The position numbers were made by a program, and so were the translations under genes. Of a stretch of 64,000 nucleotides of DNA, positions 27,895 through 64,000 are shown piece by piece (the first letter of the stretch is position 1; every line of letters starts with the position of its first letter). The stretch covers positions 95,531,001-95,595,000 of the forward strand of contig CM027379.1 in the NCBI GenBank assembly GCA_015680905.1, in the 5' to 3' direction. Under the pieces are notes generated by a model, which saw only the letters and a list, made by a program, of their open reading frames with translations, was not told the DNA's origin and did no database searches. The stretch is from Coptis chinensis. Lineage: Eukaryota; Streptophyta; Magnoliopsida; Ranunculales; Ranunculaceae.

Positions 27895-30800
27895 TCATGT
27901 TAGACTTTGCATCAAAGGCTGCAAATTAGGTTGGTCCTCAAGAATAGATTGGAAGTCGGTTGGTGCATCTAGTTCATCAACTCGACTTGTCAATCGCCTA
28001 GGTGAATTTATCACTACCCACCAATTAGGATTTCTCAAATCCTTTGAGTAAAATACTTGACTAGCCTCGGAAGCAAGAATTGCCTGCTCATCAATATACT
28101 GATCAACACTCTTTAGCCTATTGAGATTAACCATCACCAAATTAGAATCTGGACAAAGTTTACAACCATTGGTCTTGTCCTCCACCTTCAGCCAATTGCA
28201 GTAAAAGACAACATGCTGGAAGGTCGTATAGTCCAGCTCTATTATCTGTTCGATAACCCCATACCACTTAGTCGATGCATCAATGAGATTTTTGTCCTTC
28301 CTACTTGACGAAAATGTAGTGATTGCATTCATGCAAACACCACTGTCTTGTGTAGCAATTGTTTCATCATGCGACCTAGTAGAGAACACAAAACAATTAA
28401 CACGATACTTTTTATACGTTTTAGCTTTGAACAATGGTCCTTGGACAAATCGCCATAAGTCACAATTTGTGTCTTTTTCAGCCAACAACTGTGAAGTGAA
28501 AAAAAAAACGACAATTAGAAAGTTAAAAGTACAAATTGTAATATCCTAGTAAACTAAATACATGAATAGAAGAAAACAATACCTTGTCATATAACCACAC
28601 AATGAACTCAGTTTGTATCTCCACTTCTATCTTTGCTATCCCTTTTCTTCTACCACGTGCACTTGCTTGCAAGGCACGATACTCACTGCAATTTGTTTAT
28701 GCAGTTTGACATGACTATTTATTATGACTTTCCTAGACTAGTAATTTCAAGTCAAATGTGTCAAAAAAGAAATCAAACCTATAATGTTCATCAAGCTTTT
28801 CGACGTCTAGTCGAAAAAGAACCCATCTACGGATTCAGATCCATTGTTCCTTGCCCTAGGTCACAGTTTACCCTCAAGTATAAGCCCCTCATCACAATAC
28901 TCTCCATCTTCATCTAGTCCCGTGAATTTGGCATGTACTCCATAGCATACCTAACAGATTCAGAAACAATATAGGACTCCGCAATAGAGCCTTCAACATA
29001 GCATTTATTGCTCGGAATATTTTTACACTCCTTCATTGCCCTATTAAAATAAACAAATCCAAAATTGTACTTAGTAGTTTCGATGATAATTGCCATTAAA
29101 TATGAAATAAAGGTAAAATTGTACATACCGTTCAAATGGGTACATCCACCTAGGATACACGGGTCCACAAATCAGCCTTTCATCAGCCAAATGCACCAAA
29201 AGGTGGATGCTGATATCAAAAAAAGCGGTTGGAAAATACTTTTCCAGCACACACAATGCCTCTGCTACCATGTATTTGGCAACTTGGATTTCCTTTCGGA
29301 TTAAGACTTTCGAACATAGGAGATTAAAGAATAAGCTAATCTGGTGAATAGCTCTACGGAAATCACGATGTTTTGGAAAAGCGTGTTGAAGCAAAACTGA
29401 AAGCAAGTAACATATAATCACGTGATAGTCGTGTGATTTCATTGTAAGCAAACCAGGAGGACTCAAAGTGACAACATTTTTTAAATTCGACGAAAAACCT
29501 AAAGGAAGCTTTAAGTTCTTCAAAATTGTGCAAAACTCAAGTTTCTCATCTTTATTCAAGACAAATGGGGCCATTGGTTTAACAGATCTCCCTGTGATTG
29601 GGTCTGTTTGCATCCACTGACCACTCTTAATCCCCATTTTCTTCAAATCCTTTCGCGCCTGTACTGTATCCTTTGTTTTCTCTTTCTTGTCAAGAATCGC
29701 ATTTATTATGTGTTCTGCCACATTCTTCTCATCGTGCATCACATCAATAACATGTCGAATCTTATGTTTCGGCCAATATTCCAGTTCAAAGAGAATAGAC
29801 CTCTTATACCATGCTTCAGTAACTTCATAATCTTCATCATCTTCATCATCTCCAATAGCAACCACATCTATATCATCTACACTCCGTTTGGCACCTTTTA
29901 ATACTTTACCAGGTACATAATGAACACGACTTAGCATTTTCTCAATTACTTCTCCCTTTAACCTTGGTGGAGGGGGGTTTAACTCTTTTGTCTTAAGTCC
30001 TAAGTATTTGCCCTGCCTAAATGGGTGATCAGATTTAAGAAACATCCAGTAATTTGTATAAACGGTCTTCCTTGCATTCCCAAGATGCATAGACGGAGTT
30101 TCATCACCACAAATAGGACAAGCTTTGTAACCATGTTATACACGACCGATAAGTTACCATACGCGAGGTAAATCATGAATCCCCCACATCAACATAGCCC
30201 TCAAAGTAAAGTGCTCTCTTTTGTACATGTCATAAGTCGCCACCCTTCTTTCCATAACTGTTGTAACTCATCAACTAGTGGTTGAAGAAATACATCAATG
30301 TTTTGACTCGGTGCCTTTGGCCCTGGTATTAATAATGACATCATATGGAACTCAGATTTCATGCACAAAGACGGAGGGAGATTATAAGGAACTATGTAAA
30401 CAGGCTAACAACTGTAACCAGTGGATTGAACTCCACGTGGATTGAATCCATCAATTGCAATCCCAAGCCAAACATTATGCCCTTCCTTAGCAAAGTCTGG
30501 CCAATCATCTTTACATGTCTTCCACTGAAGTGAATCGATTGGGTGTCGCATATAATTCCAAGAAGGTGTCGCTCTATCGTGCCATGTCATTTCACGCGCT
30601 ATCCATGCTATTGTGTACAACCTCTTGAGTCTTGGAATCAAAGGAAAATGTCTCAATACTTTTCTCACCTCTTTTGTTTCTTTCTTCCCCGTTTTCCCCT
30701 CCTTCACTTTGTATCTAGGTGTTTCACATTGAGGACATACCGTTAAGTCAGCTTCAGTCTTCCAATATAACATACAGTTGTTTTCGCATGCATCTATACA

Positions 30801-31471
30801 CTTGGCTTTCATTCCCAAATCTTTTAACATTGCCTTCATTACAGGATACTTTAAAGGCAACGTGTTTCCTTCCGACAACCATTTTCTTAACATGGACAAG
30901 AGCGCGGTCACACTGTTTCCTGACCAATTATATTGCTTCTTCAAGTTTTGTAGGTCCACCACTGCCGAGAGAGTTGTTATAGGAGCCTCGCATGAAGGGT
31001 ATAATTTTTCTTCCGCTTTTTGTTTATATTCATTATACCTTTTACCCAAATCTGGTTCAAGAACATATGGTGGTTCCAAATCTCCACCCTCACTTTCATC
31101 GCCTCCATTCAAATCACCGCTAGCCCTTCATGTATGCCATAAGCAACGCGTCAACAAGATTCCCCATTCGAGTCCTTGACCTCATCGTTTTCTTCTGCAT
31201 CTCGGTCTACCATTCGATCCTTATATGGGTTCTCACCATGTAAAACCCATACACGGTATGTTGATTCTATACCATGCAAAATCAAATGTTTTCTCACTAT
31301 ATCAAACGGAAACCTTTTCCTATTTCGGCACTTATTACAAGGGCAAGGACACGTGGTCGATGTAGGGTCCTTGTCACTAGCAAATTGAATAAAATCCGAC
31401 ACCCCTTGCTTGTATACAATCCCAAATCTGTCAATTTCATTCATCCAATCCTTTGGAATTGGTTGAGACAT
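27895..31471 (-). pseudogene. CACTA transposase (TNPD/Tnp2-like), frameshifted
   Basis: Read from 31471 downward. MSQPIPKDWMNEIDRFG starts a transposase-associated domain with CPCNKCRNRK (31355-31325). The Tnp2 domain follows from about 31020, with VCPQCETPRYK and WHDRATPSWNYMRHP (30580-30540) and, after breaks, HVIDVMHDEKNVAEHIINAI with the conserved Asp-Val-Met-His (about 29760-29700). A region like DUF4218 (LTMKSHDYHVI...AFPKHRDF, 29450-29340) precedes a DUF4216 region (QVFYSKDLRNPNWWVV, about 28060-28000) and a stop at 27895. It would cut the element at its termini. Breaks near 31150, 30405-30090 and 29070 are introns or frameshifts; at least some are frameshifts. An acceptor TTATTTTGCAG lies directly before the start Met. 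Confidence 0.9.
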
Positions 31472-42060: not shown

Positions 42061-42489
42061 GTCGAGATGTTGTGTTCTTAGAAGACCAAACCATAGCAGA
42101 CTTTGAGGAGGGTGAGAAGTTACGGCCTTCACCAATGATCTTGTTGATTCGTAACCGTAAGTTCCTACCGTGGAACGCGTGCGTAAGGCATTGAGAATGC
42201 TTTGAGAACCATGAGTTTGAAGCTCATGATGAGAATCCTATTGCTCATGATGGGATAGAACCTATTGGTATAGAAGATGCGGATGAGATGCATGAACCAC
42301 CACCGAGCAAGCGAAGTGCAACCTCCCGAGGCACCCGGTAGATGGGGCAAGGAGGTCCGACAGAGGAGACTAGCTTCAACCAGGTATCCACCACATAATG
42401 CACGCGCTACTATCGGATGGTGGAGAACCCATGTACTATCAAGAGGCACTTGAAGGTACGCATAAAGAAAAAGTGGTTGAAGGCCATGC
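42061..42489 (+). other. Copia integrase-RT linker (decayed)
   Basis: Non-conserved part of the polyprotein; short acidic frames only (EDADEMHEP-like near 42268). The RT starts near 42490. Confidence 0.5.
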
Positions 42490-44020
42490 ATGACGAGATG
42501 GATTCTTTGCATAAGAATCACACTTATGAAGTTAGTTGAGAAACCCACGTGGAGAAACGTTCTCAAGAATAAGTGGATATACAAAGTCAAGCATGATGAG
42601 AACAATCCTCACCCAAGGCACAAAGCTCGCCTTGTTGTGAAGGGATTCGGTCAAAGGAAAGGGATTGACTTTGATGAGATTTTCTCTCCTGTAGTGAAGA
42701 TGACTTCTATCCGGGTGGTATTGGGTATGACCGCAAGTATGAACCTAGAGGTTGAGCAGCTAGATGTTAAGACAGCTTTTCTTCATGGAGACCTTGAAGA
42801 AGATGTCTACATGGACCAGCCAGAGGGGTTTGAGGTCAAAGGCAAGGAGCACCTAGTATGCAAGCTGATAAAGAGCTTGTATGGGTTGAAGCAAGCACCG
42901 AGACAGTGGTACATAAAGTTTGATTCCTTTATGGCGAAGCAAGGATACAAGAAGTCTGCTTCCGATCATTGTGTGTTTGTTCAGAGATTTCCAGATGGGG
43001 ATTTCATTGTGCTATTGCTGTATGTGGATGATATGTTGATAGTTGGCCCAAACATCAACAAGATATCCAAGCTAAAGAAAGACTTGAGTAAGTCCTTTGA
43101 GATGAAGGATTTGGGTTAAGCAAAGTAGATACTTGGGATGCGGATCACTCGTGACAGAAAGAGTGGGAAGTTGTGGCTTTCTCAAGAAAGTTACATTGAG
43201 AAGGTGTTGAAGAGATTCAACATGGATCAAGCGAAGCCAGTCAGTTGTCCGCTTGGTGGCCAGTTCCGCATGACCAAAGAGATGTGTCCTAAGGGTGAGC
43301 ATGAGCAGAGTCAGATGGAAAAGATTCCTTATGCATCCGCAGTGGGCAGTTTGATGTATGCCATGGTGTGTACTAGACCGGATATTGCTTTTCGCCGTTG
43401 GGGTTGTAAGCGATTTCATCAAATCGGATAAAGAACATTGGGAAGGTGTTAAGTGGATATTGAGATATCTCAAAGGCACTTCCAAATCATGTTTGTGCTT
43501 TGATGGAAGTAAGCCCTTACTTGAAGGCTACACTGATGCAGACATGGCAAGTGATGTTGACTCGATGAAGTCCACCTCCGGTTATCCGTTACTTTTGCGG
43601 GGGGAGCGTTTCTTGGCAATCTAAGTTGCAAAAGTGTGTTGCCCTCTCCACTACGGCCGGTATATTGCGGCCACCGAGTGTTGCAAAGAGTTGCTATGGA
43701 TGAAGAGGTTCTTCCCGGCGAACTAGGGCTAAAGCGGTAAAAGTTTGTAGTTCTATGTGATGATCAGGCGCCATCCACTTGAGCAAGAATCCGAAGTTTT
43801 CATTCTAGATCCAAGCACATACACGCGTTATCATTGATTAGAGAAGTACTTTCGAAGACAAGCATTTGTGTATCGAGAAGATCCATACCGACAAGAACGG
43901 GTCGGATATGATGACCAAAGTCTTACCGAAAGGTAAGTTTGATGTTTGTTGTGCTATTGCGGAATGGCGGCCTACACTCCTCCCGCTGATTTGGCAATTG
44001 CATGGAGGTATCCCCCTCAC
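42490..44020 (+). pseudogene. Copia reverse transcriptase and RNase H
   Basis: The best preserved retroelement protein here. A 209-codon open frame (42490-43119) contains NKWIYKVKHDENN, KARLVVKGFGQRKGIDF, VKTAFLHGDLEEDVYM and LYVDDMLIVG, with the three catalytic Asp of copia RT. After a stop at 43117 it continues as LGMRITRDR (43135) to PDIAF (43378). RNase H follows as LKGTSKSCLCFDGS, GYTDADMASDVDS and STSGY (43469-43590), broken at 43622. It lacks only small repairs in RT but the RNase H end is decayed, so it is not functional. Confidence 0.9.
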
Positions 44021-48482: not shown

Positions 48483-50279
48483 ATGGGAAGAGCACCTTGT
48501 TGTGACAAAGCTAATGTCAAAAGAGGACCATGGTCTCCTGAAGAAGATTTTGCACTCAAGAACTATGTTGAAAGACATGGAACTGGTGGAAATTGGATTT
48601 CCTTACCACAAAAAGCAGGTGAGTTTTCCAAGTTTCTTAGACAGTTAATTATTTGGTGGAAACCCATTTCAGTACTCTCTTCATTTCTCACTTTTTGAAC
48701 AATAAAATGCTAGTTTTTCTTCTCTTCTGTGGTTTTTTACTTGAAGAAAAATGGAAGTAGAGTTTCTGTTAATCAGGCAAGGAATTTGTCCAAAGCCCGA
48801 ACAAATGTGTATGAAACTTCTTGAGCTAGAAAGTATGGAAGTAGATTTCTGGTATATGAAACTTCATGAGCAAGAAATTGTTATGGAAGGTGATTTCTAA
48901 AATGAAACTTCATGACCAAGAAATTTTTATTAGTCCATTTCTGCTCTATCCATTTTCCATACGATTGGTTTATACTCTATAATCTATACCCCCGAACTCT
49001 TTGTTGTACACTCCTTTTCTCTGCACACAAGCGTTGTGCGGTTTTAAATTCTAGATTTTTAGGAGGAGGACTAGTTCAGTTTTTCAGTCAACAACTGTTT
49101 CTTGTTTTCCCTATTTGGTAGCTGTAACAATGCACACAGAGAAAAGCTGATTTTTCTTTCACTATGTTTATTTATCTTTTCTTCAATGCCCAATGTCTTG
49201 GTTTCACGTTTGTCATTCAGTTAACAGTGAATTGGGACTTTCGTATTTTTCATCCAATTATATTAGCAACTTGATCTTCTTCAAGTTAATTATGGTGCTT
49301 ATATCTTTCGGTTCAAAATTCTCTCAAGTACATATATGTTGTTTCCTATAATACAAATTTAGCTAATCAAAGTTCTCCATTTATCAGGCCTGAAGCGGTG
49401 CGGTAAGAGCTGTCGTTTAAGATGGCTTAATTACCTTAGACCAGACATCAAACATGGAGGTTTTACTGAGGAAGAAGATAATGTTATTTGTAGTCTTTAC
49501 AAAACATAGGGAGCAGGCAAGTTCATTTCAATTTTCCTGTTTTTTTTTTAGTACTATCGATCTTTACTCTTGGCATTGAAAATGTATAATTTTGCTGATT
49601 TTATTCTGTATTGTTGTTTATTTTGATCAGATGGTCAGTCATAGCATCTCAGTTGCAAGGAAGAACAGATAATGATGTAAAGAACTATTGGAACACCAAA
49701 CTAAAGAAAAAGATCTTGGCTGGAAAAATCACCCTCAATGGCGAAAAAATGCTTACTAGTAACAACCATTTGCAGCCTAGTTCTTCATCATCTCTAGCCA
49801 TGCACAATGCATCTCAAAATGATAACAAATGCTTCTCCAGTTACCTCATTCAGAATTCCACTACAGTGCCAATGTCCATGAATGTTAATGTGGGCTCTTC
49901 TAGACTACTTCCTAACTCAGTTAAATTAACTTTTCCTGGACTAGTTGATTCACCCGAATTCAGCGTAGCTTCAGCTAACAATCCCAATGTTTCATCATCA
50001 TCATCATCAGATGTTCCTAGCCTTCCAATTCCATTAGCAGTTCCTTTGGACAACAATTATAGCTCGTGGTGGTCCGGTAATGGAAGCGATGAAGATGACA
50101 GATTTTTTATGGAGTTTGGATTTGGTTCTTCCTATGATCTTTTCAATGGCTTTTGTTTTCAAGAAAGAACCAGTGGTGCAGCTGCTCCAAGCCTTGCTAA
50201 TTATCCTATTTTTGAGAATTTCTTAGCTAATAGTTCTGATACTAAGCCACAAGGATTGTACCAAAGCATTACAAACTAA
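48483..50279 (+). CDS. R2R3-MYB transcription factor, RAX/MYB36-like (frameshifted copy)
   Basis: Three exons: 48483-48618, 49388-49516 and 49631-50279. Exon 1 starts [20 protein letters not shown] and gives repeat R2 with its spaced Trp residues; exon 2 gives [20 protein letters not shown] and the start of R3; exon 3 gives [20 protein letters not shown], then KLKKKILAG and a Ser-rich, late acidic ([13 protein letters not shown]) activation-like tail of about 180 residues. The N-terminus and the GTGGNWI and QKAG phrases match subgroup 14 (RAX1-3, MYB36, MYB87) regulators of axillary meristems and Casparian strip genes. Exon 2 is 129 bp instead of the family-standard 130: one base is missing around 49500-49507, putting a TAG at 49507-49509. 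Intron 2 has a GC donor (CAG/GCAAGT). Either a true frameshift (truncation to about 85 residues, inside the DNA-binding domain) or an assembly indel; the rest is intact and uninterrupted. Confidence 0.85.
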
Positions 50280-51507: not shown

Positions 51508-53548
51508 GTACATAGATTATGATTGAAACTGAAATTGCATTTCTAGACCCTATTTGATACATACTCCAAAATTTACTGGTAATTATTCTGTTGTTTTTCG
51601 GATAATAATTAGTACCGCTAGAAGAAAGATTAAAGAATAACTACTGGTAGTAATCGTTTTCCTTCTTTCTTTTTGGATAAAAATCTCTTTTTTCATATTA
51701 ATGAATTCAAATAAACTCTGTTGGCTGATATTTTAATGATGATCAACGTCCTTCTCTTCGAATTAAATTTACTATGCTGCGCTAATGTTTTCTAATATCC
51801 TGGCTACAAGATTCAATTTATTGCCTAACCAGGTGTTAAACCCCCTCTGAACATAGTGTGCCTATGTAATTGATTTGTGATAAATATATTGTCTATTTTA
51901 AATTATAGGGACTCTTTCAAAGGTACGGTTACCATCTCTGACTAAGATTATTGAAGTTAATTGGGAGAAGAACATTAGTAGTAACTAATAGAAGCATTCT
52001 TAGTAATAGCAAAACCAGTTCTGTGTTAAATCAACTACATACTATGTCGTTCAAGTCTAGTGCGCATTTTTCTCTAAAAGACATAATTATGCAATGTTTT
52101 AACTTTCAACATATAAAATTCTACATAGAATAATAAGAATTATATAAATGAGATGTAACAATGTACAGTAGTGTTGTAGACTTCTTTATAGTTAGTGAGA
52201 CCTTCATTTCACGCATTTAAATATTTCTGTGGCATGAACTCTCGTCAAGTTTGGTAACCTGGCCTATAATTATCAAGCATTAACATGGTGTAGTTAATTT
52301 TGTATTCTTCCGGCCATCTTGTTTTGGTTATATGTGTTGCCTACCATTATGATTTCGGCCGGGTTAGGATTAGACTTGCTCTAAATGAAGAAGCTCCTAA
52401 TTAAGGGACCCTTCAAAGCCGGCCTACTTATGTTCGCTTTAATGTCTACATATTGGTTATTGGTGGCTTTACTTGCAAATGAATATTCCTTTGTCATGTG
52501 TGTATGAAGAAGAATATAGCGTGTTGAACTAAGAACTTTGCATATGGTTTAGCAGTTTAATAGTTAGCTTGATTAGATATAGATATCTGTATGAATGACA
52601 ATCTATAAAGCCCAAGTATTGAATATGTGGGATATATATTTTTTTCGATAAACACCACTCCATATATATAAATTGCAGCATAAAAAGATTGTTTACAACA
52701 AGGCAGCAGACAGACTACTAGGAGCTTGGCTCCATGCTCTTCTCTTGAGAATACGTGGAATATACTCACTTGGCGACTTGGCTTGGTCACGTTGATTTAA
52801 ATAAATCATTTACTGTAGAACTGCACATGTATACTCTAATGAATTGAAGCCTAGCTAGAAATAAACACTGTACATAAGACTATGATTCAATGAAGAAAAT
52901 AACAGTGTTGTTGTAGTAGTCAACTAATTGTTTGGGCAAATTAGTCTAACACTCTAACTAATTAAGCCAACGACATCGAGTTAAATATTCTCATTAGACT
53001 TGACTGTTTCGATTAGTCTAGTAAATAGTAATACGGTACGTGTGCGGTGTGCCATGCAAAAATCCATATTTTACAAGCTAAGTTTTCCACCAGATGATCG
53101 ATGGACGACCACGTCCCACTTAAGTCGTATATGAACACATCAAAGATTAAGTTAAAGAACATCCTTACATAAACGCCAAGATATAGCCACAACTGAATAA
53201 GCATCCAGCTAATTAACAACACATGTTTACTACTTAGTTTACTGATTTATAGTAGAATATATACTTAAGTTTAATTAACTAATTTCAAAGTCAAGATGTG
53301 AAAGGCTTCCATAGCATATTATCGCCCTTGTAAGAAGCTAACTAACTACTTAAAATGTCACTTATTTCCCTTATATCTTTGCTAGAAACCAAAGCTAGTT
53401 ACAAGTCAACATCGGATTAAAGATATTTTAATGCGACCAATGCGATGGCTCAACGTCCAAAACTTAGTCCTTATCCATCTGAAAAAACAATCAACTTGTC
53501 AAATTTCATTCGTAAGTCATAGTGACAAGAAATATCAATTCATATATC
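51508..53548. other. Intergenic, no gene recognised
   Basis: AT-rich sequence between the MITE and the Harbinger element. Short open frames on both strands have no recognisable domains. Confidence 0.4.
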
Positions 53549-53701
53549 TTAGGGTAAGTCTAATGGTGCGGCAAAACACCAAATTTCACGTAAAATGTGA
53601 TCTAATAGTACGTTAAACGTTATACCCCCAACGCTATCTTTATAAATTTCTCTATTTATGCAGTCACTTTTAACGCGATAGCGTATGCTCTCATCGCCAT
53701 A

Positions 53702-53860
53702 GCCGCCAGTGGCGGCCAGCCAAAAAAAAACCAAATAACTCTACACGGCATAGCCACTGGCGGTTAGAAATTTATTTTCATTTTGAAATAACTCTACATG
53801 CCACTCCCACTGGCGGTTAGAATTCAATCAATATTTCCACCCGCCACTCCCACTGGCGGT
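53702..53860. repeat. Left subterminal CACTGGCGG repeats
   Basis: GCCGCCAGTGGCGGC is a perfect palindrome at 53702-53716. Three more copies of CCACTGGCGGTTAG or CCCACTGGCGGTTAG follow near 53754, 53807 and 53852. The same motif recurs at the other end of the element (62155-62310), so it may be a transposase/ORF1 binding site. Inference from position only. Confidence 0.75.
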
Positions 53861-54196
53861 TAGCATTGAATTCTCTATTTTTTTGTTTTTTTAATAACTT
53901 AATTTATGCAATTACCATTCTATCCTACCCTTTTAAATTTTTTTGATTTAGTTCTATTTCTTTGTTATAATTTCAATTTTAAGATTAAATTTATTCCGAT
54001 TTGCAGCAACTTAATTAATTATTTAAATAAAATATTTATTGAAAATAAAAAAACAACAAATTAAAAGGAAATGCATTAAAAATGAATGTACGAAACATTT
54101 AAAATTCTTAATCAAATTAATCAATCGCTTTCTTCGTATTTTTCAAAGTGCAAATTTCTTGAAGGAGTCCGTGCATTCATTGAAGAATTTGATCTT

Positions 54197-54769
54197 TCAA
54201 AATTTGTTTCTTTGCGTTTTTGTACCATTTTTTCCTTGAGGTATCATAATCGATGTATTTGTGCTCATGATCTCCTTTTCCCATGCCAATGTCTCACGGA
54301 ATTCTTTTTTTTCTGCAAGTTTAATCCTTGAAGGATTAGACGCTTCACTTTCATAGAATTTTTTCCCACGGTCAGTTGCTGCTTCAATGGCCTCCATTGC
54401 CCGTTGAGATTGTCGCGTTAATTCTTTGAGAAAAGTTTCGTTTTCACCGCAAACTCTTTTTTTTTTTTGATTTGTCTCTTCCACAATCCGGTCTTTTGAT
54501 GAACCGTGTCTTTGCATTTCGAATCGGTGTTCCCCATGCCATCTTGTTTGTTTAATGGAGCCGAGACCCATTATGAAAATTAGTTTGAGAGAAACCAAGT
54601 GTAGTTGGAATTGAATGGCGCCCATTTTTGTAGTCTTTCAAAATAAACCACGATGATCAAATTTGAAGGGTTTATTATCTGAAGACCTGGTGACATATAA
54701 CTTCCTTGCTTGCTCCATCTGTAAAAGAAAAAAAAAATATTAGTTTGAGTTTAATCAATTATATTCTAG

Positions 54770-54849
<80 letters not shown>

Positions 54850-55142
54850 CAATGTCCATTTCGTTAGTTCCCGATCTGTTCATATCTTCGACGATTCAAA
54901 CATCCACGAAATAAAGTAACTGCTTTATTTATAAGTTGCCAGCTACTTGTAACACTTCTCATAGTTCGTGCCTCTGTAAAACCCCGTATCATCCTCTGAT
55001 TCTCAAATTGTTCTTTAATTTTATCCCACAATATGTTGCCTGATTGATTTGTTTCGGTAATTGGATCAATTGAATTATCCAACCATGTTTGGCATAATAT
55101 TGTGTCTTCATCAACGCTAAATGATGATCCCCTGCTTGACAT
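54197..55142 (-). pseudogene. Harbinger ORF1, Myb/SANT-like with NAM-associated end
   Basis: Exon 1 (55142-54870) reads MSSRGSSFSVDEDTILCQTW, a Trp-containing Myb/SANT-like DNA-binding start, then KIKEQFENQRM and SVTSSWQLI. An intron holding a long TA array follows. Exon 2 (about 54720-54197) starts MEQARKLYV and NKPFKFDHRG, then FEMQRHGSSKDRIVEE and a Lys/Glu-rich coiled-coil RGKKFYESEA..LAEKKEFRETLAWEKEIM, the NAM-associated C-terminal pattern. ORF1 of Harbinger elements assists transposase in DNA binding and nuclear import. Frameshift near 54650 splits exon 2. Confidence 0.75.
54771..54848. repeat. (TA)39 microsatellite
   Basis: Seventy-eight bases of uninterrupted TA, inside the ORF1 intron. 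Exact copy number is likely to vary and be hard to assemble. Confidence 0.95.
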
Positions 55143-55606
55143 TGTTACTGAAAGAGAGAGAGAGATGAAGACAGTATTATTGATAAGACAAAAATAAAAT
55201 ATTACTGATGTTTGCGGGAATGTGCATTTTAGAGAGGAAAAGACAGTCTTTTTATAGGGTCAGATTGAATTATTGAATTTTATTTTCTTGTGGTGTGTAC
55301 ACTATTGATTAGGGTCATTGGGTTGTGGGCAAGATTGTAATGAATTATGTAAGAAATTATTGGGGTGTGTGCAAGATTGAAATGAATCATGCATGCATGG
55401 AATCTATTTATTGGGGTGTGTGCAAGATAAAGAATTGTGTTAAGAAATGCATAGAATCTATCTAGAGTACGCATGTTGCATGTGTACTCTCCTGGCCCTC
55501 CACCAGCATATATAACATAACTCTCCGTAAGAAATTAAACCAATTTGCTATCACACACAACTTTTAATATTTGCAATTTTTATTCCATAATTTATTTACT
55601 AGAAAA
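55143..55606. promoter_or_regulatory. Divergent promoter interval of the Harbinger genes
   Basis: 464 bp between the ORF1 start (minus) and transposase start (plus). It contains four phrases of TTGGGGTGTGTGCAAGAT type (55319-55430), which may be regulatory repeats. A shared bidirectional promoter is inferred from gene order. Confidence 0.5.
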
Positions 55607-56974
55607 ATGAATTCTGATAGTGATAATGATTATGATTCTGATTCCCAGAGAAGACGACGTATTGAAAGACACTTCATGCATGAACAAGAAGTGTTGACAA
55701 AAAATTCACTCTCGCATTCAAATGAATCTTGTTACAACAGCTCATATCATTGAAAACTCTAATCAACCAACTCTCCATATTGGGTCTGTCCCAGGACGCG
55801 CTTATAGGAACCGTAATAGGGCAACGGGAAATGCTCTCTTAAAGGCCAATTATTTCGGTGTCAATCCCACATATGATGAAGTTTTATTTCGGAAGCGCAA
55901 CAGAATGAGCAGTCACCTATTCTCGAGGATTAGGATTGGTCTTAAGGAACATAGTGATTTTTGGATGAAGAAATATGATGCAGCCAATAAACCCGGTTTG
56001 TCGTCACGCGGCAAAATAATGTGTGCGTTCCAAATGCTAGCAAACGGAAGCCCAGCTGATTCAATGGATCAGTATTTTCGTATTGCGCAGTCAACAACAC
56101 TCTCTTTTGTTAAAATGTTTTGCAAACATGTGGTGGAGAGATTTGGTGCACAATATCTAAGATCCCCAAATGAAGAAGACATTGTCAGATTACTCCGTAT
56201 TGCTGAGTTAAGAGGTTTTCCTGGCATGCTTGGCAGTCTAGACTGTATGCATTGGACGTGGCAAGCATGTCCAATGGAATGGGCAGGACAGTATACTAGA
56301 CGACATGGATCAGCAACTCTTGTACTCGAGGCAGTTGCTTCTTTCGACATGTGGATATGGCATGCTTACTTCGGTTTACCAGGTACTAATAATGATGTTA
56401 ATGTTTTGTGGCGCTCTAATCTTTTTCACGAGACTAGCATTAGGTTTAACCCTCCGGAAAACTATTCTCTCATGGGTAAGGACTATCTTGTCGGTTATTA
56501 CTTACCGACGGTATACATCCTCAGTTGTCTACACTAGTGAAGGCGAAAAGGAATCCTAAATCAAGAAGAGATAAATTGTTTACGCTGATGCAAGAATCTT
56601 ATAGAAAAGACGTTGAACGAGCATTTGGGGTTCTTCAATCTCGTTTTGCAATTGTTAGAGGCAAAGTTCGCTTGTGGGACAAAGATGTGCTCCATGATAT
56701 TATGTCGGCATGCATTATTTTGCATAACATGATTGTTGAGGAAGAACGACATAACTATTTGAACGCTTACGTTTATGGAGACTCTGAACCTATTATTAAC
56801 CATGATTACTTTGAAAATCCTAATATAGTAGAAATTGTTCCCGACTGAAACCCCAATTCAGCTGAATTCCGCAGAGTCTTGCAACGCGTGGCATATGTGC
56901 ATAATAGGCACGAGCATGTGGAATTAGAGCAGCGTCTGATTAACCATTTATGGGAATGGCGTGATCAGAATTAA
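55607..56974 (+). pseudogene. PIF/Harbinger DDE transposase (ORF2), frameshifted
   Basis: Starts MNSDSDNDYDSDSQRRRRIE, a frameshift near 55730, then the main body VPGRAYRNRNRATGNALL to VGYYL (55770-56510). It contains the DDE_Tnp_4 motifs GSLDCMHWTW (first Asp, about 56237), GTNNDVNVLW (second Asp, about 56390) and, after a 1-bp deletion near 56507, VERAFGVLQSRFAIV with the catalytic Glu (56610). A TGA at 56846-56848 interrupts the C-terminus, which otherwise continues to TAA at 56972. The catalytic triad is intact; three local lesions (two frameshifts, one stop) inactivate it if they are real. Confidence 0.9.
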
Positions 56975-57219
56975 GATGTTTTTATGTCGTGCATTTCTTA
57001 TATGTTTCCAGTGTACGTTTACTCGTGCATTTATGGGAATGGTAGTCTTTTTATGTCGTGCATTTCAAGTGCCTGCTCCATTCAATTGCTTGGAGTAGGC
57101 ACTTGAATTCGGCTTCTTCTGCACTACATGCTTCATTGCTTTATGTTCGTGCAGCCAAGTAGAGACCATTAGAATCTCGTAACACATAACAGTAGGCAAA
57201 ATTGTGTCCAAATTTCCCT
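56975..57219. other. Repeated TTTATGTCGTGCATTTC region
   Basis: 3' region of the transposase gene; TTTATGTCGTGCATTTC occurs at about 56980 and 57050, and a related CAAGTGCCTGCTCCA..GGAGTAGGCACTTG inverted repeat at 57067-57110 (hairpin, terminator-like). No gene. Confidence 0.5.
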
Positions 57220-57384
57220 CTAAATAGGCCAGCTTTGTGGTGGATAATGATCAAGCCTCAGTTGCCAAGGATGTGCAGCTACAGATCTCCTTGACAAAGA
57301 TGACAGTATTCTCTCATTCAGATGTGGAACTTGACTTTTCTTCTGAGCAACTTCTTTTGCATATTCGATTACTTTGTCACTCAT
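57220..57384 (-). pseudogene. Soluble inorganic pyrophosphatase N-terminal fragment (captured)
   Basis: The minus frame reads MSDKVIEYAKEVAQKKSQVP then HLNERILSSLSRRSVAAHPW, after which it diverges (QLRLDHYPP...) and stops at 57220. NERILSSLSRRSVAAHPW is the conserved segment before the active-site region of plant soluble (PPA) pyrophosphatases, which hydrolyse PPi in the cytosol. The usual H-D-L-E-I-G-P-G continuation is missing, consistent with an exon end or a break. A TTTGATAG acceptor-like site precedes the ATG, so it may be one genomic exon. It lies inside the Harbinger element, minus strand. Confidence 0.85.
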
Positions 57385-57700
57385 TTTCTATCAAAGATAA
57401 CAAAAATGTATCATTTAAAGTCATAGTCAAGGGGGAAGTTCTTCAGATCTGTAATAAAATGTGAAATCTGGCCAAAATATATTTGATGGCATCCAATCCT
57501 TTATGTACCTAAATATGTAAATATATTAATGAAAGTTTATACATGGAAGCAAATAATATTGCTACGTTTATGTTGTTACACGTCTCAAAACAGAACTAAC
57601 AATCTGAATCTCATCCATTTGTCGTGAGATAATTAAAGCATGAAAGTAGTCAAAACAACATGCCGAACAGCAAGCACATATATACATACATAGATGAACT

Positions 57701-57912
57701 CTAAATGCCCCTGGAACCTAGAACATCAACCCACATAAGCTGAAGCTCTACTTCACCACATTCTACATCAACCCACATAAGCTGACAATTGTACCGCTTA
57801 GAAGGTCTACCAGATGCATTTTGACGGCCTCGAGAAAAGGCTTAATGTCGAACTCTACATCCCCCATTTTGTCATCCATGCTGAAAGTGTCTTTGTCGTC
57901 TGCAAGCATACC
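57701..57912 (-). pseudogene. CAR-type C2-domain protein C-terminal fragment (captured)
   Basis: Minus frame: DDKDTFSMDDKMGDVEFDIK, PFLEAVKMHL, a jump to another frame, then VECGEVELQLMWVDVLGSRG and a stop. This is the C2-domain end of plant CAR (C2-domain ABA-related) proteins, calcium-dependent membrane-binding helpers of ABA receptors. The segment between the two pieces (normally about 40 residues with a CLAEES-like motif) is missing. The phrase CATAAGCTGA is repeated across the junction, suggesting deletion between short repeats. Inside the Harbinger element. Confidence 0.8.
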
Positions 57913-58507
57913 AAAGTCATTAAACTAACCATCTTCACAATACGAACAATATACTGGTGTTTAAACTACAACAATATACTGGTGTTTAAACTACAAAAAT
58001 CAAAGGCTATGCAAATTTAAAACTTTTATGAATTCTACCGAAACACTTCAGATAGCCAAATGAGTTGGGCCATTTCATGAGTAACAAGACGAAGTATGGC
58101 AATGATGGTGATAGTGGTGTTTGTGCAAAGGGTCTTCACATGTGGGACCTAAACCCCCAGGGATCCCCACTTAGATACTTATCCCATAAGCAAATATCTT
58201 TGACTCTCAGTGATCAAATTTTTCAGTGATCAAATTCATTCTATTATATCAAAGTGATCAAAGGTTCTATCTCAGACTCTCAGTGATCAAATTTTTCTGA
58301 CACCATTATAGAACTAACAGTAATGTTTCTTAGCAAACCAACTTATATAAAAGGATGGGAAAATTTTTCTTTAGTTGTTGTATCGGAATCAAAGACAATA
58401 AATACCAAGTAGATAGGATGGCTTACAAGCTTGACTGGAATACTAATAGAAACCATAGCTGCTACTTCCTTCTCCATGTGAGCTCGAGTAACGCATGGAT
58501 GGATCAG
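57913..58507. other. Harbinger interior with GTGATCAAA repeats
   Basis: AT-rich. GACTCTCAGTGATCAAATTTTT occurs at about 58213 and 58276, with further GTGATCAAA copies between. No gene recognised. Confidence 0.5.
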
Positions 58508-60570
58508 TTAATTCACCCGCAAAATGAGGGACATATACATCCTCCCTTGAGATAGATGGCCGAGTTTGAACTTGTGGGGGGGGGTCATCTGAGGCGCAAC
58601 TACTTCAGGATATTCAGAATATGAAATGTCATGACTATTCAATTCTTGACGAGCGTATTCCAATATATCATCCTTATTAGCATGCAACCCACTATTCATT
58701 TTGCAAATAAAACTAGCCATAGAAGTCGTGGCATGCATATAGTCCTCTAACATCGTCTTCAACTGTGCCTAAATTGATACCATAATTAAATAAATTAAAA
58801 ATTGATACAAAAAATAAAATAAAATAAACTATTTAATTTACTTACTGGTGTCAAGTTGGCATCAATAGGGAGATGTGGCACCAAATCTTTGTCAATTGAT
58901 GGAACACGTAAATTAAAGATTTCACCATTACGACAAATAATAGGGATAACCCAATTGGCTTCAGGAGTAACAACTGCCTCAACTTGTGATAATGGGGGAT
59001 ATGATGAGTGATTAAGGGTTGCCCCCATCGGCTGTGAGATACCTACATCCTCATTAAGACCAGATGCACCAACAAAGTCCACATTCACACCTCTATAAGT
59101 TGGGGGTAGAAGCATCCTCACTGAGACACGAGCCCAATACTCAGTGTATTGCTACTCACTAACCTGTCTAATCAAGGCATCAACAAAAATGTCGCCATTG
59201 TTGTACCATTGGAGCAATATATCAGTCTGGCATCCGTTAAGATTCATATGCGAAGGGGGATCACAAGGAACTAAAGGAACGCTAGTGACTTGGCGACGAC
59301 AACGCTCTCCTAAATACCAAACATTTACTAACGGTCCAAACAAGATGCATCGCCGACTAGTCAACTCTAATGCTTTCCTAACATATGGATGATTTATGCG
59401 TATGCATGTGGAATCTGCCCATGGTAGCCATACAATAGAACTCCGAAGTAGTACTTCTACTCTACTTGCTGTCGCTAGACTTATATTACAATGGGCTTCA
59501 CCTTACCTTATGATACCTTGAATCGGTAAGTTGGACCCCAATTATTTATAGCGTGAAATTGGTCGGGATCTTCAAGTATCCAAATGTGCATGCCATTTTT
59601 AAAATGAAAATATGAATAATACCAATAATTTTAGTGAACAAAACAAATATATTAGCACATAACTAACTAATCAAATCCATTTAAAAATAAAATAACTTTT
59701 AACTACCTCAATGACTTGCCACATCCCCACCAATCCCGCGGCTTTTACTACCATTGTCAATGCCAAAACGACATACCAAGTCCAAAGACATAATTAGATG
59801 TGTATATGCAGCTCCTCCCCAGCATAACTACCGATCTCATCTATCTGAATAAGACTAGCTAGGTATCCCAAACGAACCTTCCTGTGAGAATTTGCTAACA
59901 ATACATTTCCAATAACATACAACATGAAAGCACGAAACCCTATTTCTCTTTCATTAACACCATCTTGCACTACATAAGTTGTATACATCTCTAAATGACT
60001 CAGTTTGATGCTGCCACTATGAATCTCATCCTCCGTTAAAAAAGATAAATATTTGACAGCCTCATCAAATAACTCATATTTTGAATCAAAAGCTACAATC
60101 TTTCCTTCTCCAACACGCAACCCCGGAAGCATTGAGAAATCAAAGGGCGTAAAGCCTATCTCGCCACATGGAAAATGAAATGTGTGGGTAGAGTCCCACC
60201 ATCTCTCTACAATTGCTTCAACTAACTGTCTATCGGACTTTTCAATATCAATTTGAGCAAAGACGTCAAAACCAACATTCTGAAGCATCAATTGAAATTC
60301 TCCAAAGTTCACTTGGCTCAACCATTCCATAACAGGGGCCAAAGTCCCTTTCTTACCGACTTTTCCCTTCGTTCCACCACCTTCACGAAGAGTAAAGGAT
60401 ATGTGTGTACTTTCCTCTACAACAACACGGTGATAAGAACTAGAATCAAACTCAGAATAAGAAGTCCCTACACGTACATCTTCTGGATTTGGGGCATTTG
60501 GTGTCCCTGACTTTTTCGACTTTGTACCCTTACCTCTGAATTTGTGTAAAATGCCAGACATTGTAACTTG
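58508..60570 (-). pseudogene. Plant mobile domain (PMD) gene, broken
   Basis: Read from the Met near 60560 (MSGILHKFRGKGTKSKK) downward. The PMD core is ERWWDSTHTFHFPCGEIGFT then PFDFSMLPGLRVG (60225-60100), the W-x-x-E/D-T-H-T-F-x-x-x-x-G-E-x-T-x-x pattern of the aminotransferase-like plant mobile domain. AYTHLIMSLDLVCRFG-like text around 59810 and IWILEDPDQFHAINNWG near 59580 follow, then KALELTSRRCILFGPLVNVW (59380-59320), WADS..INHPYVRKA and a C-terminal helical part (58762-58508). The domain occurs in host MAIN/MAIL1 genes, which keep genome integrity and silence repeats, and in transposons. Several frameshifts break it; introns (GTAG...-type borders near 59710-59650) remain. Whether it is captured host DNA or an element-own protein cannot be told. 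Confidence 0.75.
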
Positions 60571-61117
60571 TGAGAAATAAATTAACACCAAAATCAAACA
60601 TAATTTATAATATGAAACTAAATAAATTGGTCTTGCATTACGACAAATAAAATTAAGTGCAAGTTATGATATAACACAAAACTAGATGATATGGCATTAC
60701 GACAAATAAAATTAAGTGTGGCATTTTCTTTCTACTGATGGTATGACACAAAACTAGACCACACTATAGTATTCTACGTATATCAACACACAATCGTAGT
60801 CTCCTTAACCTATAAAAACTCCAGTTATCCTTCAAAAGGATACTAACGTACACATCATTTACCAAATCAAGTGGACGTATTGCTGGGACTTAGACAATGG
60901 TTTCAATTGATGTATTGAGAATCCAAGTCAAAGTGCTTGAAGAACTTGCTTGCAGGGAAGTTATTAGTGACTAAATTGTCCCACAAAAACTTGTAGCACA
61001 TCAATTGAAACCTACAATGGTTTTATAACACATCATTATAAATTAACGAAAATCTCGATGCCCACAGTATCAGATACTTATTAATTGAAACCTGCCAGAA
61101 ACTTATTAGAATAAGAA
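60571..61117. other. Harbinger interior, mostly non-coding
   Basis: AT-rich. GACAAATAAAATTAAGTG is repeated at about 60645 and 60703. The text TCTCGATGCCCACAGTATCA at 61050 is a partial copy of the next ORF's coding segment (about 61173). Confidence 0.5.
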
Positions 61118-61423
61118 ATGGTGAAGAGCATAAACAAAAAGAAAGATAAGAAAAATGGTGCAGCTTCGATGGATATCTCGATGCCCACAGTATTAGATAC
61201 TCGCCAAGCAATGGACACAATAGAAGTTACAGCTAAAGATTCTATTCACGGTGTTCTCAACAAAAATATCAAGAAGGGAGTGCCCATGAAGAGATCAAAG
61301 AATGTTAGAAAGATGAAAGCCATCAAGAAGGCTATATCCAAAAATGAGAAGTCAGAAGAGAAAATTACAAAGAGTGAAAAAAAAGTGTCGAGAACTAAAT
61401 CTGCAAAAATGCTGTACGAATAG
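61118..61423 (+). CDS. Small basic protein, C11orf98-like, intact ORF
   Basis: A 101-codon frame, intact from MVKSINKKKDKKNG to a stop at 61421. It contains GVPMKRSKNVRKMKAIKKAI and ends KSAKMLYE, the Lys/Arg-rich pattern I recognise in a small conserved plant protein related to animal C11orf98, of unknown nuclear/nucleolar role. No intron, unlike most captured pieces here, so a processed copy (retrogene) is possible; its 3' flank runs as untranslated-like text to an A run at 61783. It lies in the Harbinger element on the same strand as the transposase. It is the only captured item with an unbroken frame, so it might be expressed. Confidence 0.65.
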   Translation: MVKSINKKKDKKNGAASMDISMPTVLDTRQAMDTIEVTAKDSIHGVLNKNIKKGVPMKRSKNVRKMKAIKKAISKNEKSEEKITKSEKKVSRTKSAKMLYE

Positions 61424-61961
61424 AGTTTAAACACCCTTGTTGAGAGCAGTAAAATGCTACAAAGGAGATGATCTGTCGCAATGCCCTTGGCAATCTGAAC
61501 AGGTCCATATCTAGATAAAGTGTTATTACCTCTTTTCTGTCTGTGTCTTTGAGATATAATTCATTTACCCTGTACTAAGTTTTACAGAACAAATTTTGGA
61601 ATTGTTTGACCTATGGAACAGGTTAAGGTAACCACCCTATATGTGAAAAATGCACACTACTTCACACCAGTTCTGTTTGACGCAATTTCCATTTGATGGA
61701 AAGTGATTTATACATTTCCACAGCCATGTAACAAATATAGTGTGAATGTCGCACTACTCTTGGTTGTATTTGTACCATCTTTCAAAAAAAAAAAAAGTTT
61801 CACGCATTTATATGTACCATAAAAACATGCTTTGAAGGAAATTGAACAAATAATTGGTGTGCAATCACAAAAACAACTATAAATCAAAACAAAGGGATTT
61901 CTTGATTCACATTTAACAATTAAAAAGTACAAGAGTACTATAAGCAAGCTTGTAGAATTAC
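61424..61961. other. 3' flank of the small ORF, candidate poly(A) relic
   Basis: Reads like a 3' untranslated region (TGTCTTTGAGATATAATTC, then GTACTAAGTTTTACAG), with a run of 13 A at about 61783-61795 that could be a remnant of a poly(A) tail. No other gene. Confidence 0.4.
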
Positions 61962-62001
61962 CTGTTGCAGTTTTTTTGCTTCCCTCTTTCTTTCTAGCCA
62001 T
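61962..62001 (-). other. Possible first exon MARKKEGSKKTAT
   Basis: On the minus strand ATG at 62001 starts MARKKEGSKKTAT and runs to a perfect donor (ACAG/GTAATT). A basic start and a clean splice site suggest a real first exon, either of a captured gene or of the PMD gene transcript. No continuing exon identified. Confidence 0.35.
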
Positions 62002-62154
62002 TTTTGTGGGAAGTGGCAATGAAAAATCCAAAATTTGGCGCCAATTTCTTGATTCTATTTTTCTCGCGTGGTGGTGTTGAACAATGAGAGTGATTTTTTT
62101 TTTTTGGTGTTATGGGTGTTTTTTGTTTGAAAGGGTAATATTGTAAATAACTAC

Positions 62155-62310
62155 ACGCCTGTGGGAGTGGCGTATAAAAAAATTGTTTTTTTTTTTTTTT
62201 TATTTCTTGTCTGCCACTGTTGATGGCGGATAACAAAAGTCAATATTATTGTTGGAAACAAATAACCGATATTTAATATTTTGTGCTGCATGCCATTGTC
62301 ACTGGCGGCT
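62155..62310. repeat. Right subterminal CACTGGCGG repeats
   Basis: CCTGTGGGAGTGGCG (62159), CCACTGTTGATGGCGG (62214) and CCATTGTCACTGGCGGCTAG (62292) match, in both orientations, the array at the left end of the Harbinger element. Confidence 0.7.
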
Positions 62311-62414
62311 AGAAAAATAAACCATTGGATTTGATTTCGCTATCTCACTAACTGTATTCGCTGTGCTATTGTGGTTTGGTGTTTTGGTACACCAAACCAT
62401 TCGACTTAGCCTTA

Positions 62415-62572
62415 AGGATATCTTTTGTGCATTTAATTTGTTGATGAATTTTGGTGACAAATATTTTGCATGTTTCTATTTCCCACTAGAAAATGAAGCC
62501 ATTTCAAAGGTCTTACCTACTGTATATAATGTCTAATGAGAAGGAATTTGTGGACATACATAAAGCATGTGC
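62415..62572. other. Flank between Harbinger and next element
   Basis: AT-rich, nothing recognised. Confidence 0.4.
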
Positions 62573-63305
62573 CCTAGGACAACAGAATGTGATTGGCCCA
62601 GCGTTAGATTAGTGGCCCCATTTTTATTGAAAACCCAAAAAGAAAAAAGAAAAAGGAATTAATGAAAAAAGAAATAGGAAATGACCAAATGACCAAATGA
62701 CCAAATGACCTTCTTCTCCATCTTTTCTAGTGTGAAGCACGATCTCCGGCGTTCTACACCTTATACAACAAAAATCAGCTTTAAATTCTATGGTAACTTT
62801 TGCTTTACTAAAAGGCTAAAATTGTACGTTAGTGACCAAAAATCCACAAACTTTGACTTCTTCATCCCGCTTCAGTGATATAACACAATTTTCGGTTTTC
62901 AGTTTTCCAAATTTTCATTAAGGATTTCGATTTGCGGTAAACCCAACAAAATTTTCAACAACTTATGATTTTAATGGTGAAATCACATAATCAGATTTGT
63001 TCACTTAAATTAAATAATGATGGGGATCAAAACAAAGATGAGCAAGGACAAAGGTTATCTTTTTTTGCCTGTTCTACCTGATCAATTTCATACCTGAATT
63101 CGTGTTGTGAGTCCAAGATGAAGAAGAAGATGGGTTGGGTGTTGGCGAAGAGTAAGGTCTTTTGGTCTTTTGACTCTTTTCAGATTTTGTTTTTTATTTT
63201 CCTTGTATTTATTTTTTAATTTCGGTTTTCAATCAAAATAGGGCCACACTAATTTGACATGGACTAATTTGCTTAGCTGGGCCAATCACATTCTGTTGTC
63301 CTGGG
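62573..63305. mobile_element. Non-autonomous TIR element, superfamily unclear
   Basis: Left CCTAGGACAACAGAATGTGA, right (opposite strand) CCCAGGACAACAGAATGTGA, both continuing TTGGCCCAGC: about 30-bp inverted repeats with one mismatch, 733 bp apart end to end. No target duplication is clear beside them, so the exact ends and superfamily stay open. The interior has a 10-bp tandem repeat ATGACCAAAT (62676-62714, four copies) and an Asn/Lys-poor gene-like stretch near 63118-63150 that I cannot name. Confidence 0.7.
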
Positions 63306-64000
63306 TCTCTCTCTAATTTTTAATTGGTTCCATAACTGTTGCCATTGAAACTTCAACTGTCTATGATTTTATGTGCTAACGAAAGGTAATATCTGGACGT
63401 GAGAACCTTCTAATTTTCGACCAATAGAATGAATGTTTTCATTAATTAATTGATAAACAATGACATTTCGTGTTTTCATTGGAAAATAATAATAATTTGT
63501 CTTCGTTTCATTTAAGTTAGTTAGGCATATAAGACCTTTGTAGGCTAAACATCAACATTAATGTTGACAAATCTTTTTTTCAAATGTTAGGCCGTTGGGT
63601 AAAGAATCGTTTTCCCTACCCATTCAATTTATAATAAAAGCCAGAGCCATGCTAGATTTAAAATGGCTGCCAATCTATGCAGATTTTCAACTGGATGCAT
63701 GTAGGCTCATTCTTGATTGGTTTAATATTGTGCAGTCTAATTGGATAAAAAAGGCACACATGGGGTAATTGAAGATTAGAAGGAACAATTAATGTCACTA
63801 AAAATAAGGCAGAGAAAATGAAATTATATTTTATTTCTTTTGAAAATAAATGCAGGATTAGGGCATGTAGATTGTGGAGGCTACCAAATTGAAAGTAGCC
63901 AATACAATGATACGTACATTTGCAAATCTAGTTAAAAACAACGATTATTTGCCCCAGTCAAACACGATATCTTGTAGTGGTTTTCAAGTACTTTTTTACT
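63306..64000. other. Intergenic, nothing recognised
   Basis: AT-rich sequence without open frames, repeats or motifs I can support. Confidence 0.4.

Follow-up and report, generated by a model that had tools for sequence, protein, structure and literature searches.

The 64-kb window that we analyzed is a stretch of the 935.6-Mb genome of the medicinal plant goldthread, Coptis chinensis (C3:95531001-95595000; the genome searches reported here cover that assembly), and its positions 53552-62411 are occupied by a single PIF/Harbinger transposon that holds a plant mobile domain (PMD) gene next to its own ORF1 and transposase. The element lies between perfect TTA target site duplications (53549-53551 on the 5' side and 62412-62414 on the 3' side), recognized in the sequence and from the TTA/TAA pairs of sister copies. 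The left terminal inverted repeat with its subterminal repeats (53552-53900, plus strand) was delimited from the sequence and its genome matches, and the right end, comprising a subterminal region and a terminal inverted repeat (61821-62411, plus strand), from the sequence and the alignment of copies. The outer 16 bp of the two termini are identical at 14 positions. A local alignment of the outer 60 bp matched 28 of 32 aligned positions with one 5-nt gap and scored 31; the highest score was 28 among 1000 shuffles and 26 among 2000 other places in the window. The outer 350 bp scored 32, which shuffled sequences exceed (maximum 36, mean 20.7) and the 2000 window places do not (maximum 31). The motif CACTGGCGG of the subterminal repeats occurs exactly five times in the 64 kb, every time within about 310 bp of one or the other element end. 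The terminal inverted repeats are short and G-rich at the outer end, as in PIF/Harbinger elements, and the element combines several features of this superfamily: a 3-bp TWA duplication, terminal repeats, a transposase of the Plant_tran/HARBI1 type and movement as a unit.

TWA duplications frequently agree by chance, so it is the sister copies that decide whether the element is one unit. A search with the left 1449 bp of the element returned 40 scored genome places (from 482 candidates; 32 of 72 rows, all short pieces, were removed) and a search with the right end returned 41 (11 of 52 rows removed). We compared 21 copies, namely the window copy and the best-scoring 20 of the 39 other scored places, using extended sequence for 12 of the 20. 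Both ends were in hand for 16 of the 21, spaced 4.6-12.5 kb apart, and the 3-bp duplications around these 16 were identical (TTA or TAA) in 13 and differed by one base in 3. One copy, L009 (C3:96567420-96577419), lies about 1 Mb from the window copy and, when compared with positions 53252-64000, has the same flanks, identical over 297 and 288 bp. The bodies of the two copies show a patchy divergence of 0-21 mismatches per 300 bp, which could stem from gene conversion, repair off other copies or mis-polishing. Because its flanks are those of the window copy, L009 is the same insertion duplicated, which leaves 12 rather than 13 independent insertions with perfect duplications, 11 of 8.9-12.5 kb and one of 4.6 kb; no other pair of copies had matching flanks. 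The presence of the same two ends at many insertion sites indicates that elements with these ends moved repeatedly as a unit, and upholds the claim of the sequence-only reading of this DNA that one Harbinger element lies between perfect TTA duplications. The copies share a constant core made up of the left end, ORF1 and the transposase to about 57034-57085, the PMD gene (58436-60904), the sequence upstream of it (60910-61055) and the right end from 61821. Between these parts lie two variable slots, A and B, whose contents fall into groups and appear in differing combinations among the copies.

ORF1 (54200-55142, minus strand, from the list of reading frames) is preserved in two open pieces (54867-55142 and 54200-54637); the AT-repeat stretch between them contains stops and may be an intron or damage. 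The pieces occupy the position expected for the Myb/SANT second protein and matched no Pfam family above cut-off; we take them to be ORF1 from that position and from general background on the ORF1 family. The transposase (55595-56974, plus strand) was identified by Pfam as Plant_tran/DDE_4 (PF04827), with E values of 2.6e-46 and 1.2e-36 for its two halves, and is interrupted by two frame breaks and one in-frame stop. Its catalytic D, D and E are retained, each 98% conserved among the best 120 of 3192 relatives. The closest of these 120 are plant HARBI1-like proteins with up to 53% identity, and none of the 120 carries a Coptis name, many having no name at all. A motif-limited scan found a transposase reading frame of at least 400 aa in none of the 21 copies, 7 of which gave no motif. 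The earlier attribution of a transposase to the element is correct as to its presence, that of an ORF1 agrees with the position of the two open pieces, and the element is of the autonomous type by descent only, the transposase and PMD frames being broken. Just 3' of the transposase, at 57064-57107, there is a 44-bp imperfect palindrome that is 86% self-complementary and folds as RNA with -32 kcal/mol.

The PMD gene (about 58450-60561, minus strand, from Pfam and the copy alignment) has a frame break near 59830 and an in-frame stop at 59152-59154, and its domain (PF10536) scores 63.6 bits within the element ends against a cut-off of 34.9. The sequence-only reading had counted this gene, at 58508-60570, among the captured set of the window copy. 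The gene is indeed there, but not as an acquisition of this copy, for it stands at the same position in 17 of the 21 copies, with at least 98% of 58450-60561 in 16 (including L015, where it is split by other DNA) and 43% in L013. A genome query with the PMD gene gave 40 scored places (500 candidates; 2 of 42 rows removed), which we compared with the 40 left-end and 41 right-end scored places. A Harbinger end was found in the expected place and orientation at 28 of the 40 (left end at 19, right end at 20, both at 11), with about 0.008 pairings of left end and PMD expected by chance. When the first PMD exon was used to search proteins, 5 were recovered (286 candidates), all from Coptis. The tail of one Coptis PMD gene model, P0004, is proteasome RPN8 sequence that recurs in slot A of L011 and L013. 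The tails of two others, P0002 and P0005, found no identification in PDB, and Pfam, run on that of P0002 and on residues 1-50 of that of P0005, identified nothing save a below-cut-off match to NFD4_C in P0005. The PMD gene is a standing third gene of this Harbinger family rather than cargo of the window copy.

We compared codons of the three genes in the frames of the window copy, setting broken codons aside and excluding the duplicate L009 and copies with less than half of the codons. Variants private to one copy mostly arose after insertion, whereas variants shared by several copies are older and were transmitted by multiplying elements. In the PMD gene (15 of the 21 copies), shared variants comprised 42 nonsynonymous (N) and 37 synonymous (S) changes, a per-site N/S of 0.32 (bootstrap 0.21-0.51), against 179 N and 54 S among private variants (0.94; 0.69-1.28; Fisher p 0.0001). 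The transposase (18 of the 21 copies) gave 41 N and 28 S shared (0.39) against 132 N and 40 S private (0.88; p 0.011). When only the 13 end-verified copies were used, shared and private ratios were 0.30 and 0.97 for PMD, 0.47 and 0.72 for the transposase, and 0.46 and 0.82 for ORF1. The shared ratio of PMD stayed at 0.28-0.33 with any single copy omitted, and the two wrong frames of the gene gave 0.74 and 0.78 for shared and 0.77 and 0.50 for private variants. Depleted of amino-acid changes among its shared variants, PMD behaves like element machinery that decays later in single copies. From these codon counts, the gene seems to have been kept by purifying selection in multiplying lineages, about as strongly as the transposase.

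The right end contains an exon-like stretch (61963-62050) in which the GT that follows it is kept in 12 of 15 aligned copies and a TTGGCGCC box in 8 of 15, and in which the ATG frame is often stopped. A first coding exon of PMD at 61963-62003 was considered and rejected, as the third codon is a stop in 7 of the 15 aligned copies, the ATG is missing in 3 and the frame is open in 5. The stretch 61963-62050 is perhaps the promoter and a 5' untranslated region (UTR) exon of the PMD gene. On C6, three partial PMD copies stand in tandem with a spacing of about 2.7 kb (C6:82239324-82246399), a fourth lies at C6:82223046, and none of the scored Harbinger ends adjoins the tandem copies.

Slot A (57034-58436 in the copy alignment), between transposase and PMD, holds CAR material in the window copy, L009, L012, L018 and L026, and part of it in L015; L011 and L013 contain the RPN8 fragment, and other contents also occur. 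In the window copy, the match to a candidate donor revealed a soluble pyrophosphatase fragment on the minus strand, composed of the N-terminal coding exon and upstream non-coding DNA with an acceptor-like site, that begins at 57263 and reaches 57513 or beyond, the donor sequence compared going no further. It is 96.8% identical to a gene on C8 over 251 nt and has a second match on C6 (97%), so that the donor is one of two candidates. Among the 21 copies the piece is found only in the window copy and its duplicate L009, and it joins a stretch common with L019 through an 8-nt overlap. The CAR/C2 fragment (57527-58199, minus strand, also from a donor match) follows the donor gene on C7 (C7:6171515-6171887) in the order of its parts, with an intron, portions of exons and the 3' UTR; it lacks about 100 nt of the coding region, and at the joint (57765-57785) stand 21 nt copied from sequence close by. 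Of 12 places counted with a CAR query (2 of 14 rows, each a second piece of the gene on C7 or C1, removed), 10 lie within Harbinger elements; the other two are the C7 gene itself and a match of 77-83% on C1. The pyrophosphatase and CAR pieces are unspliced genomic DNA with candidate donors, and the junction overlap and copied filler would fit patching by template-switching repair. The element thus carries pieces of unrelated host genes, as had been proposed, and the intervals first given for them (57220-57384 for pyrophosphatase and 57701-57912 for CAR) take in only part of each piece.

Slot B (61055-61821 in the copy alignment), between PMD and the right end, contains a processed retrocopy in the window copy, L009, L010, L012 and L025, a second type of content in L018, L021, L022, L024 and L026, a third in L011, L016 and L023, and something different in L019. 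L012 has a slot A largely common with L018 and a slot B retrocopy common with L010. The retrocopy (61095-61796, plus strand, from comparison with the host gene) has a short 5' UTR, an open reading frame at 61118-61423, a 3' UTR and an A13 tail ending at 61796. Its parent at C3:40633000-40635100 has three coding exons and two introns with GT-AG borders; the window copy is continuous at both junctions, and the host gene has no A-tract at the point that matches A13. The small basic open frame recognized earlier is real, and it came not as captured genomic DNA but as a spliced, polyadenylated retrocopy. The encoded protein of about 100 aa has relatives in many eudicots and in Asparagus (45 hits), with six Coptis clusters (clade support 85/93). 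A genome query counted 17 places after 5 of 22 rows were removed (3 pieces of counted places and 2 short 3' ends near Harbinger right ends): 9 lie within Harbinger elements, 7 are shorter copies outside them and the last is the host gene. The presence of this sequence at 9 of 17 places within Harbinger elements indicates that the retrocopy was multiplied by the transposon. A flanking retroposition duplication with a 12/13 match was present in 2 of 7 retrocopies tested (score 10 against a 99% null of 9 and a null maximum of 20). Protein alignments gave no significant sign of purifying selection on the retrocopy, with variation in 12 of 53 conserved and in 16 of 45 variable columns (p 0.18), and the pairwise omega of 4 copies was 0.57 (bootstrap 0.38-1.26). 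The seven outside copies, such as C5:42969402-42969894, end near query position 491 with no scored Harbinger end adjoining, and are perhaps other retrocopies with a different 3' end. The sequence-only reading had suggested looking for donor loci and for the cargo in related copies; these comparisons placed the CAR donor on C7, the pyrophosphatase candidates on C8 and C6 and the retrocopy parent on C3, and separated the pyrophosphatase piece of the window copy and L009 from the CAR piece and retrocopy found in several copies.

Elsewhere in the window, 27898-31127 contains the remains of a CACTA-type transposase (Transposase_21, DUF4218, DUF4216), probably of the CACTA element to which the sequence-only reading had referred. 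A Copia-type reverse transcriptase and an integrase zinc-binding fragment were found at 42481-43116 and 12127-12603. The reading frame at 49599-50276 includes the end of a Myb DNA-binding domain and may represent the final exon of a host MYB gene adjoining the element.

Several observations weigh against a resident, selected PMD gene and the history built around it. Coverage of PMD is only 23% in L027, and the gene is missing in place from L014 (which has an inverted part further on), L017 and L020; since L020 has both ends and a perfect duplication, PMD is not indispensable for every mobile copy. Neither Harbinger end was in the scored lists at 12 of the 40 PMD places. The N and S changes were counted simply, with no likelihood model; the mean pairwise dN/dS of PMD is only 0.64 (0.50-0.76), the block 58589-58768 shows no depletion (10 N and 4 S shared), and there is no contrast between shared (0.74) and private (0.55) variants of ORF1 in 20 copies (p 0.57). 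Stop alleles are among the shared variants (7 in PMD, 5 in the transposase), a sign that broken genes did not keep some lineages from multiplying, and gene conversion or polishing with reads of other copies could blur the distinction between private and shared variants. As the comparison covers the best-scoring 20 of the 39 places, older or more divergent copies were outside its view. For the retrocopy, a retroposition duplication was not clear in 5 of the 7 tested and was not seen in the window. If PMD were passive cargo that an ancestor had caught a single time and that hitch-hiked as the other pieces did, one could readily understand why it neighbors two slots that hold passive cargo, why stops occur in 13 of the 15 counted copies and why L020 is two-ended without it. 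Passive cargo would not, however, be expected to show a shared N/S of 0.32 against 0.94 for private variants, robust to the omission of copies and absent out of frame, nor to persist in 17 of 21 copies while the slot contents turn over, and we consider it unlikely.

Other explanations concern the integrity of the element itself. The sequence-only reading had named as a refutation that the two termini come from different elements; host DNA and other transposons would then lie between them. Chance agreement of TWA duplications would make such a pairing look like an insertion, and PMD genes are known in other transposons (PMC5418596). This is already refuted by the sister copies, which keep both ends together: the same ends recur in 15 other copies 4.6-12.5 kb apart, 12 of them with identical duplications, and the flanks differ among copies apart from L009. 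A scan of 56975-62150 also found no internal terminal repeat (at least 11 matches) with a duplication, and we regard two-element termini as extremely improbable. The same scan, which gave no nested terminal repeats, bears on the other concern, that the cargo was brought by other transposons nested in the Harbinger element. For the small basic ORF this is true in a sense, as it is a retrocopy with a poly(A) tail, presumably made by a retroelement. Yet the eight ORFs tested around the cargo have no retroelement or MULE domain, only matches below the family cut-offs, and for pyrophosphatase and CAR the matches are to bare genomic DNA of host genes, so nested transposons are a very improbable source of the cargo as a whole. 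Finally, part of the mosaic might be an assembly artifact of a repeat-rich genome, for example from wrong polishing, as the identical flanks and patchily differing bodies of L009 and the window copy could suggest. Against this, the same architecture is seen at many sites whose flanks differ, and wrong polishing alters bases, which could explain some frame breaks, not the order of kilobases; we think such an artifact quite improbable.

We consider it likely that the window element is a defective member of a large three-gene family in which PMD is under selection, two slots hold cargo, two capture routes supplied it and the cargo multiplied with the element. In the usual form of the family, ORF1 and the DDE transposase would be transcribed apart and PMD would run toward the transposase from the right; the transposase would cut and paste the whole unit at TWA sites. 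Host PMD proteins help silence transposons. The purifying selection apparent in multiplying lineages suggests that PMD probably serves the element, and, since host PMD proteins act there, it could do so by blunting or redirecting host silencing or chromatin control. Foreign DNA would be tolerated at slot A, where the transposase and PMD genes converge, and at slot B, between PMD and the right end. By one route, unspliced genomic DNA (pyrophosphatase, CAR) was most likely patched in during break repair with template switching; by the other, a spliced, polyadenylated mRNA copy of the small basic protein gene was most likely inserted by a LINE-type reverse transcriptase. Once loaded, cargo would multiply with the element, as the CAR piece and the retrocopy have done.

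Gene capture by PIF elements that bear a transposase is not new, as it was published for grapevine in 2008, and the claim that capture is rare for autonomous-type Harbinger elements was overstated (PMC2528002; for maize and rice in 2022, PMC8903248). The full-length Pifvine-3 elements of grapevine contain transduplicated host exons and introns (PMC2528002). Like the Coptis element, they have ORF1, a transposase and a long additional region with exons and introns of host DNA that is sometimes common to several copies; in their case, however, this region lies 5' and measures up to 3.5 kb, and the parts of that report on which we draw mention no PMD, retrocopy or selected third gene (PMC2528002). 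The Pack-PIF elements of maize and rice also have PIF termini around captured coding DNA, in families that gain DNA stepwise, but are defined as non-autonomous and without transposase, with an average of 535 bp in the Pack group of cluster 18 (PMC8903248). The Coptis element resembles Pack-TYPE elements in the captured coding DNA between its ends and departs from them in having its own transposase, albeit broken. PMD genes reside in Ty3/Gypsy elements (PMD-A) and in MULEs (PMD-C, captured twice), whose anti-silencing use of PMD is a speculation of the same authors (PMC5418596). The element described here is likewise a transposon bearing a PMD gene, the carrier being a PIF/Harbinger element rather than a Gypsy element or MULE (PMC5418596). 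HarbingerS elements with a SET methyltransferase in oomycetes and TET/JBP-bearing Harbinger elements in rust fungi share with it an extra gene tied to host chromatin control, but belong to other kingdoms, carry other domains and, in the TET/JBP case, make TA duplications (PMC12730594). In the sections of a review that cover them, PMD and Harbinger are treated separately (PMC8616336). Among the open-access titles listed, a part of that literature, we found none on a PMD-bearing Harbinger element or on a third gene in Harbinger elements.

As a gene-capturing PIF/Harbinger transposon, the element is of an ordinary kind; what sets it apart is a resident PMD gene that appears to be under selection, together with two slots whose history can be read. 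Tentatively, and with more doubt than the family structure itself, a PIF/Harbinger lineage may have made a PMD gene of the silencing machinery its own third gene, selected for escaping or exploiting silencing, with the slots acting as a shuttle that multiplies host exons and retrogenes. A constrained PMD gene beside the transposase of a multi-copy Harbinger family would make the idea of a counter-measure testable in a second superfamily of DNA transposons. With two slots, candidate donors and several stages of loading in one genome, the order and chemistry of capture may be read directly. The retrocopy inside a DNA transposon, multiplied by that transposon, points to a route of gene movement that is seldom counted.

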